A stretch of 33,710 nt of DNA from positions 1-33,710 of IMG/VR virus record IMGVR_UViG_3300025162_000122; one strand, written 5' to 3'. Source of the DNA: a virus. The first letter of the stretch is position 1. Each line of letters starts with the position of its first letter. Both the position numbers and the translations under genes were made by a program. Positions 24,902-28,724 of this stretch are shown here, one piece after another. The notes beneath the pieces are model-generated. The model was given only the letters and a program-made list of their open reading frames with translations, was not told where the DNA came from and made no database searches.

Positions 24902-26137
24902 TTAGTGCCGGATTCCGCCCTTCATATGGCTGAGTTTTATCAGGGTGGCTGCTTCGTTGATGTTTCCATGTGCATCCTTGACAAATATTTCGTCATCGAG
25001 GCTGCTCTCTGTTCTGCCGTCCTGCTCCTTGGTAATCGTCACGCCCTTGTCGTTCAGGGATACTTTCGGAGCGACAGGTTCGGATTTGATCTTTTCGAGT
25101 TCCGCCTTCATGCTCTTGATGAAATCGACGATTAATTCGCCTTCTGGGCATCCTGCTTCGCCACAGGCCTTGTTGATTTTATCCAGGGCCTCCGTTTTGT
25201 GCGCATAGTCTTTCTGAATTGTGGCATGTTCGCTCTGCACCTTTTGTAATTCGAGGTATTCGGTAAGAGGCATGAGTCTGTTGAGGTCATTACCGTTGCC
25301 ATCAAACTTTCCGGTGTCTGGAGTACACTGTGCGCCAAGAGAGACCGCGTGGTCATGGATCGCCTGAGCTTTCTCTTTGTTTTTTGCGCTGATCTCGGCA
25401 CCTGCTTTGTGGATGTCGTCAGTAGTTGCGGCAAGCGTTATGGGTGTGGCCATTGCGTTGGCGGCTGTAACTGCAGCTGCATCTATATCTGGATCAGGCT
25501 CTTTGAGCTCTGAGATGATGAATGATTTAAGTCTATCTATAACAGCTTTAAGGTCGGCAATCTGGTCAGGGTTCTTCTCTGCCTCACCCACTTCATCACT
25601 GAAAAGCCACAGGATATCGCCTAAGGAGTTTAGCGCTTGTCGTGCATCCATGATACTCTCGCCTAAATATTTCTTGAGGTCTACCTTTTCGAGTTTGTCG
25701 ATGTCCTCAAACTTCACCAAAGTGAATATTGCCTCTTGATTGGCTGGTCTGTCAACCAGTGAGATTTCAATCAGTTTTAAGCCGGTGACAGTGGATTTAT
25801 TCAGCTCATCTCTACCGGTGACTTTCCCGCCAATGCTGAAGCCTTTGTACACGCCTGCGTTGACTTTCTTCACTGCTTCGGAATCGACAATGTGCGCCCC
25901 GAAATAAGTACGGCCATCTTCCTGGACTTCTGCTTCAATAGCGGTGCCTGCTGCTTTTGCCTGGTGCATTTCTCGGACAGCTCCGAATTTCATGTAATCA
26001 GGAATGGCGGCTTTCATGGCTTCCGCTGTCACGACCTCACCGTCTGAATCAACAGCTTCTGAGGATGCGATTCCCCATACTTTGATGGTGCCGTCATCCT
26101 GTGCTTCCGTTTTGCTAATTTCTCCGTAGAGTTTCAT
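24902..26137 (-). CDS. Prohead protease with fused scaffold domain
   Basis: 411 aa. Residues about 1-145 form the caudoviral prohead protease (herpesvirus-assemblin fold): IKVWGIASSEAVDSDGEVV, REMHQ with catalytic His58, YKGFSIGG with catalytic Ser101, and KLIEISLVDRPANQEAIFTL. The rest is helical and charged with a coiled coil (residues about 300-350, LELQKVQSEHATIQKDYAHK), typical of the scaffold part that is cleaved during head maturation. The fusion of protease and scaffold explains the length. Its leader holds the second copy of the 27-bp repeat and follows a terminator. Confidence 0.9.
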   Translation of the reverse strand: MKLYGEISKTEAQDDGTIKVWGIASSEAVDSDGEVVTAEAMKAAIPDYMKFGAVREMHQAKAAGTAIEAEVQEDGRTYFGAHIVDSEAVKKVNAGVYKGFSIGGKVTGRDELNKSTVTGLKLIEISLVDRPANQEAIFTLVKFEDIDKLEKVDLKKYLGESIMDARQALNSLGDILWLFSDEVGEAEKNPDQIADLKAVIDRLKSFIISELKEPDPDIDAAAVTAANAMATPITLAATTDDIHKAGAEISAKNKEKAQAIHDHAVSLGAQCTPDTGKFDGNGNDLNRLMPLTEYLELQKVQSEHATIQKDYAHKTEALDKINKACGEAGCPEGELIVDFIKSMKAELEKIKSEPVAPKVSLNDKGVTITKEQDGRTESSLDDEIFVKDAHGNINEAATLIKLSHMKGGIRH

Positions 26138-26646: not shown

Positions 26647-26884
26647 CCTTTGATTTGAATTCTCCGCACCACCAATCTTCAACAACACAAGGGAAATACC
26701 CCAAAGCCGGACGATACCAATCAGGAGCTACTCCAGCAGCTAAATCTTCGCCATCATCGGCGTATGTCGGCATTGTTTCGACAAAAGGCAATGGTGGGTT
26801 TCTCCTGCATAAGCCTTGAGTCGCTCCATCAAAAAAATTTTCCTCCGGATAAAACCACTCGCAATTATCACACTTTCTTTCCAT
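26633..26884 (-). CDS. Small Cys-rich (metal-binding-like) protein
   Basis: 83 aa from the ATG at 26884 (MERKCDNCEWFYPEENFFDG), chosen because it overlaps the preceding stop as TGATG; a longer frame to 26956 runs inside the neighbour. Five cysteines: C-x2-C at residues 5 and 8, then GLCRRNPP, FPCVVEDWWCGEF. The 'kC.nC..f.pe....G.CrrnPP.......vv.dWCGEfk' pattern is a common small bacterial/phage domain thought to bind a metal or Fe-S centre. Its function is unknown to me. Confidence 0.65.
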   Translation of the reverse strand: MERKCDNCEWFYPEENFFDGATQGLCRRNPPLPFVETMPTYADDGEDLAAGVAPDWYRPALGYFPCVVEDWWCGEFKSKDGSF

Positions 26885-27099
26885 CACTCTCCATCCTTTG
26901 CTGTATTTCCTGAAAACGCCATCGACAAAGCCACAATCCAGCCTATAAACGTCCATCCAAGGAAAATATTCACAACGGCAACACTGCCGTAACTCCTATG
27001 GCTTCTTGCCCCTGCAATTATCGCGGGAAGCATGTAGATCAGAATACACATGATCGCGAAAAACATTATCAGCTCCTTGATTGATATTAAAAAGGCCAT
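26884..27099 (-). CDS. Superinfection immunity-like membrane protein
   Basis: 71 aa with two hydrophobic segments (LIMFFAIMCILIYMLPAIIA and VNIFLGWTFIGWIVALSMAF) and the motif YMLPAIIAGARSHRSYGSVA. This matches the Imm_superinfect family (PF14373; T4 Imm-like), in which the 'lP...A..R.h...isI.vlN.flGWT.iGWv.aL' pattern is diagnostic. T4 Imm blocks DNA entry of superinfecting phages at the inner membrane; many relatives have no tested role. Here it sits in a cassette after the MuF gene, so it may protect lysogens or infected cells. Confidence 0.85.
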   Translation of the reverse strand: MAFLISIKELIMFFAIMCILIYMLPAIIAGARSHRSYGSVAVVNIFLGWTFIGWIVALSMAFSGNTAKDGE

Positions 27100-27116: not shown

Positions 27117-27323
27117 TTACTTCTTGTCATTTAGTTTTTCGAACTGGATGCCATGATCGCCTTTGTACGGTTCTTTGTGATCGTTTTTCCCCATCCATAT
27201 TTCCATTGGTATGCCCTTTGGGAATGCTTCGCATTTGTGATCTTCTCCTACGTCGTTATGCTTGCAAAAGGTGCATATCTTGCTGTATTGAGGGATTTCA
27301 AACTCTTTGTCAATGGTTATCAT
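27117..27323 (-). CDS. Small Cys-containing protein, candidate MuF partner/immunity
   Basis: 68 aa starting MITIDKEFEIPQYSKICTFC. Three cysteines (C17, C20, C31) in 'iCtfCkHnd...dhkCeAFPkGIP', then EIWMGKNDHKEPYKGDHGIQ and F. This compact domain occurs as a stand-alone small protein in many bacteria and phages. Its start overlaps the MuF stop (ATGA), so the two are made together. Tight coupling to a gene with a C-terminal enzymatic-looking domain is the classical toxin-immunity layout, but no immunity function is known to me for this family. Confidence 0.72.
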   Translation of the reverse strand: MITIDKEFEIPQYSKICTFCKHNDVGEDHKCEAFPKGIPMEIWMGKNDHKEPYKGDHGIQFEKLNDKK

Positions 27324-28594
27324 AGCTCTATTCTGTTATAGTTTATATAGCCCATATCCGCGAAATGTGTTGCTCTGAGATGTGCGTGTATAGCATCGGC
27401 TTCCTTGTAAGTTATCTCTCCTGAATTACATTTAGCTGTTAATTCTTTCTTTATCTTCTTTTGCGAACGCGTCAAGGCACTTTCGAAATCTGCTTTTGAG
27501 GTGCTTAACCCTTGCTCGGTTAATGACATTTCATACAAAAATTCCGTACTGGTTGCTCTTAATGATGACGGTTCCCATGATCTAAGGAAATATATATCTG
27601 CTTCAGAAAAAGCCGTTCCTGATGGATGGTTGTGGGTCAAAATATTACCTGTCGCCATCTCACATTCTTCTCGCGTGAATGAAACTAATTTCCCTTCACC
27701 TCTTTTCCTGAATACTTCAGCCCCATCGTTATCTACAAATATAGCTGTTTCAAAATCGTTCCCCGCTATATCAGCTTCTAACGCAAGAATAATTTCTTCT
27801 GTTCCCGCTTTTTCTGAATCTTGACCAGTGTCATCTCCACTGTCTGCATCTAAGTTGTCTTGCGACGAAACACTCTCTTCTTGTTTGTCGTCAGCACTTA
27901 AAGTATCCTGCCTTTCTTGCGGATCATCCTCCACTGCCGGAGCTAAAACACAACGGCAATTTGGATGTTGCGGGCACTCAATCGCGCCACTTGGAAACTC
28001 TTCGCCTATCTCCCTTACTTCTCCATCGTTCATCTCACACTCTTCAGAAACCAGATCATCACCTGCGGTCATCCACTGCCACTTAACATCAAGACCTGCA
28101 TCTTTTGCCTCAAGATAAGCGGCTTTATTGCCTTGTGTATCCGCAAACGCGGTTTCTGTTCGAGCTATCATCATTGCGCGGCTGTCGGAAAATCCTGTGT
28201 TTTCGACAATCGCATCTCTCAGTCTTTGATTACTCCATCCTTCTGAAATTGCGCTGTCAACATCCTTATAGATCATGTCTCGGGTGGATTCGGCGATGCT
28301 CCACTCTGCGTTTGGATTTGTTACCAGCTCCCCATCAATCCACTTCATACCAACCAGTTCGGCGGCTCGGTCTGCGGCCCATTCCTCAGCTCGGGAGTTA
28401 GCGAGCTTTGTCGCTTCTTTTTCTGTAAATGCAATCTGCTTCATCGCGTCTTTCACGCCCTGCGCGGCTGTGGCTGAAAGAAGCTCTTCAATGTCCGGCA
28501 CGATATTAGACCAATCAAGATCAAGTTGATCAAGAAGCTCCTGCACGGTGTTATCTTCTTCAGCCTTGCTTATTGCTTCATACAGCTTAACCAC
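27320..28594 (-). CDS. MuF-type minor head protein with C-terminal JAMM-like domain
   Basis: 424 aa from the first in-frame GTG at 28594, but the frame stays open to the portal gene (see finding). Residues about 100-217 are the Mu gpF/SPP1 gp7 head-morphogenesis domain: NQRLRDAIVENTGFSDSRAM, MIARTETAFADTQG, a GDDLVSEECEMNDGEV segment and ECPQHPNCRC. An acidic, Ser-rich linker (about 222-265) follows. The C-terminus (about 268-424) holds NILTHNHPSGTAFSEAD, with H321, H323, S330 and D333 arranged like the JAMM/MPN+ metal site of RadC-type proteins, and an E293 upstream. MuF proteins with such C-terminal extensions are known polymorphic-toxin carriers. Confidence 0.88.
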   Translation of the reverse strand: MVKLYEAISKAEEDNTVQELLDQLDLDWSNIVPDIEELLSATAAQGVKDAMKQIAFTEKEATKLANSRAEEWAADRAAELVGMKWIDGELVTNPNAEWSIAESTRDMIYKDVDSAISEGWSNQRLRDAIVENTGFSDSRAMMIARTETAFADTQGNKAAYLEAKDAGLDVKWQWMTAGDDLVSEECEMNDGEVREIGEEFPSGAIECPQHPNCRCVLAPAVEDDPQERQDTLSADDKQEESVSSQDNLDADSGDDTGQDSEKAGTEEIILALEADIAGNDFETAIFVDNDGAEVFRKRGEGKLVSFTREECEMATGNILTHNHPSGTAFSEADIYFLRSWEPSSLRATSTEFLYEMSLTEQGLSTSKADFESALTRSQKKIKKELTAKCNSGEITYKEADAIHAHLRATHFADMGYINYNRIEL

Positions 28595-28724
28595 TTGCGC
28601 AGCTACATCCTTTCCTTTCGTCTTCAGGTACCCGGCAACAAACTTCTTCAGCTTTGCTTCGTGCTTCAGTATCGCGGGCCTTTCGCGGTCAAGCGCTTCA
28701 TAAACGGTGCGGGCTTTTTTTTTT
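28595..28724 (-). other. Open in-frame extension linking portal to MuF at an A10 run
   Basis: In the MuF frame the sequence upstream of GTG 28594 has no stop and reads ARTVYEALDRERPAILKHEA, then KLKKFVAGYLKTKGKDVAAQ, which is amphipathic helix of the type found at the start of MuF proteins. It has no ATG, GTG or TTG start. It begins at a run of ten A's (28715-28724) within the portal gene, where the portal frame would need a -1 shift to enter it. Confidence 0.6.

Follow-up and report, generated by a model that had tools for sequence, protein, structure and literature searches.

The window, that is, the whole stretch of 33,710 nucleotides of viral DNA analysed here, carries on its minus strand a head and packaging module composed of terminase, portal, MuF, prohead protease and a probable major capsid protein, with the MuF gene directly downstream of the portal gene (Table 1). 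In profile searches the portal protein reached 72.4 bits against PF04860, above the cut-off of 39.1, and stayed under the cut-off of 112 for TIGR01537 (E = 3e-8, 33.2 bits). The MuF protein is above the cut-off for both of its profiles, with 61.5 bits against PF04233 (E = 1.6e-16, cut-off 29.6) and 46.3 bits against TIGR01641 (E = 4.6e-12, cut-off 39.65).

Table 1. Features at and around the portal-MuF junction of the window
Feature	Position	Strand	Evidence or remark
Portal ORF, HK97-like, 0 frame, 527 aa	28666..30249	-	PF04860, E = 4.8e-20; C-terminus QKKKPAPFMKRLTAKGPRY, then stop
A10, putative slip site	28715..28724	-	Portal-frame reading CTT CAA AAA AAA AAG CCC
0-frame TGA stop, ends portal alone	28666..28668	-	About 49 nt past the run here, 46-49 nt across the window clade, where it is conserved
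Third-frame TGA stop	28698..28700	-	Reads KKKSPHRL, then stop; the other slipped frame would give a short portal too
Start-less MuF-frame segment (ARTVYEALDRERPAILKHEAKLKKF...)	28595..28714	-	Coding-type divergence; conserved PIDR motif inside
MuF part of the predicted fusion, 464 aa after the run	27320..28714	-	Open frame and profiles
MuF domain (PF04233)	27944..28273	-	Residues 108-217 when counted from the GTG
Weak RadC/JAB-like motif (THNHPSG...) in the MuF C-terminal extension	27590..27658	-	PF04002, E = 0.089, under cut-off
Small Cys-containing ORF	27117..27323	-	Overlaps the MuF stop by 4 nt; no family match
Superinfection immunity protein	26884..27099	-	PF14373, E = 5.7e-17; shortly downstream of MuF, within the head module
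Prohead protease	24902..26137	-	Peptidase_S78; marginal Multi_ubiq match (E = 0.05), probably chance

The original prediction, made from the window alone, had drawn attention to a run of ten A residues near the 3′ end of the portal gene, and this run is in fact the sole A/T run of at least 8 nt within the window. It had also held that a -1 shift at the run enters an open MuF frame, and that this frame has no good start before a GTG at 28594. Both points were borne out. The MuF frame is -1 relative to the portal and is open from 28738 to 27320; past the run, ATG, GTG and TTG are all absent from it up to GTG 28594, which has no Shine-Dalgarno (SD) match in the upstream stretch that was scanned. 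As the frames read, the segment between the run and the GTG is reachable solely via a frame shift. A -1 shift would join portal residues 1-512 to 464 residues of the MuF frame, with the junction reading Q509-KKK-ARTVYEALDRERPAILKHE..., and the computed product of 976 aa agrees with the fusion of about 970 residues that had been expected. Both frames that do not lead into the fusion end early after the run, at the two stops given in Table 1. The run also includes an in-frame heptamer, A AAA AAG, of the X XXY YYZ type.

Relatives of the window were gathered by portal or by MuF from many samples, and the portals of the window clade are 64-92% identical. Run length and frame in homologous phages had been named in the original prediction as a check on the site, and the outcome is uniform: all window-clade contigs that cover the site have exactly A10, the same -1 relation and a 0-frame stop at the distance given in Table 1. 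The alternative raised there, that the true run length differs and the two genes form one plain portal-MuF ORF, is refuted for the window clade. An error of sequencing or assembly could be suspected from the fact that homopolymers are error-prone and that single fused ORFs do occur in relatives, but A10 recurs in contigs that were sampled and assembled separately, conservation extends to the 0-frame stop, and divergent relatives with a GC content of 24-67%, including the genome-collection contigs L137 and L139, still have MuF at -1 behind an A10 or A9. We regard such an error as exceedingly improbable.

The divergence within the clade was further resolved by codon position. For the MuF-frame codons that follow the 0-frame stop and precede the first GTG, the values at the three positions are 0.25, 0.24 and 0.51; in the undisputed MuF codons further on they are 0.32, 0.29 and 0.63. 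Because the divergence before the first GTG falls mostly on third positions, the start-less segment appears to be translated, and this pattern of substitution marks the MuF frame as coding upstream of any start. The same segment encodes an L/PIDRDRP motif, which is present also in those relatives that have portal and MuF in a single ORF.

Viral and genome contigs were searched with a portal alignment and MuF was found with a purpose-made profile, which gave a set of 80 non-redundant loci with MuF near the portal. An A9 or A10 stands at the junction in 38 of the 80 (15 A9 and 23 A10), with no A8 and no longer run. Runs of at least nine A number 38 in 29,735 nt of junction sequence, and the other 636,584 nt of these loci have none; when the four loci found by a pattern containing the A run are left out, the counts are 34 in 28,118 nt versus none in 613,649 nt. 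A scan for at least eight A ahead of the PIDR motif returned 34 stretches, in which the 21 new loci all have A9 or A10, as do the loci that had already been read, and runs of A8 or of A11 and above occur in no locus of any set. By these counts, the junction run is conserved in homologues beyond chance.

A dispensable lysine tract was considered for the run and rejected, since genes that use AAG keep an AAA tract at the junction alone. AAA makes up less than 35% of the portal lysine codons in 19 of the 36 A9/A10 clusters, the AAA:AAG ratio otherwise in the genes is 0:25 in L108, 0:16 in L097 and 0:13 in L137, and none of the six other KKK stretches in the same portal and MuF proteins has an A9. 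These observations also bear on the possibility that portal and MuF are two ordinary genes, in which MuF would begin internally, at GTG 28594 or elsewhere, and the A run would be a harmless lysine tract. A GTG does exist at that position, and the distant relatives L013 and L017 have separate, overlapping downstream genes. Such an arrangement is nevertheless very unlikely here: the GTG is without an SD, no start is conserved across the -1 loci, the start-less segment has coding-type divergence and the PIDR motif, and the AAA tract that is unique to the junction in AAG-using genes would be left unexplained. Recoding at the portal-MuF junction is not universal, since no slip site is recognised in 14 fused loci and in 5 out-of-frame loci among the 80, and other solutions therefore exist in the family.

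The 38 A9/A10 loci fall into two polarities. MuF is in the -1 frame in 21 of them, where a slip would lead to the fusion, and portal and MuF form one ORF in the remaining 17, where a slip would lead to the short portal form. Opposite polarities are found between sisters, namely L044 (A9, -1) versus L055 and L043 (A10, fused), and L131 (-1) versus L151 (fused). The second pair consists of a viral contig of 24% GC (L131) and a Campylobacterota contig (L151), both with A10. On the portal tree, which is a quick version with SH-aLRT support only and many weakly supported forks, the seven site-and-polarity labels require 28 changes. Read from the sequences, the run is retained while the default product changes.

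An A9/A10 difference that flips the frame between close relatives, as in L044 versus L043 and L055, is also what a phase-variable tract or a decaying gene might leave, with replication slippage toggling the MuF fusion within a population. We consider this highly improbable, given that the window clade is A10 throughout and that lengths of 8 or of at least 11 are missing from all sets. Moreover, heptamers with ribosomal stimulators, which cannot phase-vary, occupy the same place in relatives.

These heptamers (A AAA AAA, A AAA AAG, G GGA AAA/G and C CCA AAA/G) are found in frame in 17 of the 31 clusters of fused loci that lack A9/A10, where 0.83 would be expected at the rate seen in the remainder of the genes; the heptamer positions had been chosen by pattern. 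By the median, they stand as far from the MuF domain as the A9/A10 runs do (168 and 166 nt). Resampled in-frame positions of the same genes served as controls for SD-like pairing and folding. Upstream anti-SD pairing at the heptamers averages -7.9 versus -3.0 kcal/mol in the controls (p < 5e-5), where the SD-like bases may partly stem from conserved peptides, and downstream folding is -24.9 versus -18.6 (p < 5e-5). The A9/A10 sites are enriched in neither respect against the same controls (p = 0.15 for anti-SD pairing and p = 0.81 for folding). The heptamer relatives thus look like true -1 ribosomal frameshift sites.

The position of the next stop also separates the two kinds of site. In fused loci, the +1-frame stop comes after a median of 2 codons at A9/A10; the median is 13 for heptamers (p = 1.7e-4) and 17 for the control positions, with some shifted-frame stops being created by the downstream PIDR codons by themselves. 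A -1 ribosomal shift needs no early stops in both alternative frames. Slippage on the transcript populates all frames, so that early stops in both alternative frames are expected of it.

At the window site, the same two products could also come chiefly from ribosomes shifting to -1 on A AAA AAG, the way they do in dnaX of Escherichia coli, and a -1 slip on this kind of heptamer, held to be the most efficient known type, was what the original prediction had in mind. The heptamer is indeed present in frame within A10, so some slipping by the ribosome may take place. The resemblance of the heptamer relatives to true ribosomal sites speaks for this mechanism, as does an AAGGAG that lies about 15-20 nt upstream of the run in several members of the window clade (L054, L061, L062 and L064). 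Against it, the window itself has neither SD-like pairing (+0.4 kcal/mol) nor unusual downstream structure (z = +1.5), which favours transcriptional slippage; the run lengths are 9-10 and never 8, though 7 suffices for the ribosome; and an early third-frame stop at A9/A10 sites would be needed only under transcript heterogeneity. Ribosomal slipping is rather unlikely to be the main mechanism here. We infer that RNA polymerase, more than the ribosome, is the main slipper at A10.

Taken together, it is quite likely that one locus makes both the portal and a 976-aa portal-MuF protein, mainly through RNA-polymerase slippage at A10, which would then be a programmed recoding site. The majority of transcripts would keep the portal frame and yield the portal alone. 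In some transcripts RNA polymerase would slip on A10, as a rule inserting a single extra A, and ordinary translation of these transcripts would produce the fusion; transcripts in the third frame would run into a quick stop and again give a short portal. The portal rings would be dodecamers of mixed composition: on a few subunits, MuF and the variable extension at its C-terminus would project inside the head, and the slip rate would set how many subunits bear them. Probably it is the fraction of fusion that determines how many MuF copies the 12-subunit portal ring holds. The original prediction had proposed that slippage gives MuF to a share of the portal subunits, and this is now strongly supported by the comparison, with the run, the frame and the 0-frame stop conserved and the -1 frame under constraint. 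The occurrence of slippage, the entry of both proteins into the virion and the ratio between them are what we infer from these sequence patterns.

For the family, the best reading is RNA-polymerase slippage at A9/A10 and -1 ribosomal frameshifting at the heptamers. It is likely that the portal rings of tailed phages across a broad family consist of portal and portal-MuF in a ratio fixed by recoding, with the signal often replaced, the polarity flipped and the dual output kept. The family would then offer a clear natural series, with RNA-polymerase slippage standing in for ribosomal frameshifting, and the reverse, at one spot. How one or two copies of an internal protein are matched to a 12-fold portal ring would find a simple and testable answer in a covalent fusion whose amount is set by recoding. 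If this is true, the fidelity of the host RNA polymerase would be a determinant of virion stoichiometry and of the load of internal protein.

The C-terminal extension of MuF is variable within the window clade. Its RadC/JAB-like signal in the window is only weak, and for this reason we claim no effector role for the extension; the C-terminal domain gave a low-confidence model, with no fold match at E <= 0.001 and no match to a solved structure. The small Cys-containing ORF behind MuF is conserved in L018, L019 and L021, where it sits beside the same MuF C-terminal domain, and could be a partner of the extension. In L018 (1631-1915), a superinfection-immunity ORF is fused to the MuF tail motif (SGATEPPQHPNSRC), present there as a second copy, a recombination relic which suggests that the region behind MuF is subject to exchange. 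On the portal side, L003 (4706-5262) as well as L002, L004 and L005 carry an extra in-frame module of about 160-185 residues right before A10 in the portal 3′ end, and the portal-alone product therefore also varies via module exchange. A contig of Roseiarcus fermentans (L145 and L152; G006:C7, 165-178 kb) holds seven portal-like pieces of the portal-MuF family in about 13 kb of one chromosome.

Fused portal-MuF genes are known from Arthrobacter phage Sonali, from Microbacterium clusters EA3, EA5, EA8 and EB, and from a survey of polyvalent proteins (PMC7302621, PMC5512222). They are described as plain fusions there, recoding or a dual product not being noted. Neither portal-MuF fusions nor slippage is new by itself; in the open-access literature searched on these subjects, no earlier report of recoding at the portal-MuF junction was found. 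Probably, many genes of this kind have been wrongly annotated, be it as a pair of genes, a plain fusion or a frameshift error. The cultured reference phages examined are either plain fusions or only distantly related. Polewnik, Strzyga and Sonali each lack any run reaching A6, and THSA-485A, an AT-rich distant relative that was left out of the counts, has one A9 about 200 nt after the portal match. Two matches from the plasmid collection are both fused, a Herbaspirillum seropedicae record with A7 at the junction and a Neisseria gonorrhoeae prophage without a run. An A10 element of the portal-MuF family lies in Trinickia mobilis DHG64 (L140). A look for further prophages in the family of the Trinickia genome returned, among 300 genomes, only the one already known.

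MuF proteins bind the portal and may carry C-terminal effector domains (PMC5576092, PMC6316719), and gp7 of SPP1 is present at 1-2 copies per capsid (PMC5576092). In SPP1, gp6 and gp7 are encoded by separate genes and bind non-covalently, whereas the link predicted here is covalent and its copy number would be set by recoding. Two products from one phage locus are also made by the lambda tail assembly chaperone gpG/gpGT and by SPP1 gp17.1/17.1*; those are tail genes with ribosomal frameshifts and no transcriptional slippage.

Closer parallels to the A9/A10 sites come from bacterial genes. In the type VI secretion gene tssM, slippage on poly-A leads to the long form in tssM1 of Citrobacter rodentium and to the short form in tssM3 of Yersinia pseudotuberculosis; it amounts to 15-25%, with 20-25% shown experimentally at A11, and both TssM1 forms are needed (PMC4256274). 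As at the A9/A10 sites, the poly-A lies before a premature stop, without SD or structure and in both polarities (PMC4256274). Slippage is reported to be uncommon among tssM genes, whereas A9/A10 is found here in about half of the sampled loci. The dnaX gene uses transcriptional slippage at A9 in Thermus thermophilus (PMC1088944) and ribosomal frameshifting on A AAA AAG with an SD and a stem-loop in E. coli (PMC5009743), and both polarities occur across bacteria (PMC5009743, PMC1088944). Like portal-MuF, it is one gene for two proteins with a common N-terminus, with A9 or a heptamer according to lineage. The difference is that dnaX is a cellular DNA polymerase gene, while the site described here lies at a phage structural junction, where slip type and polarity appear to have been switched repeatedly within one family.
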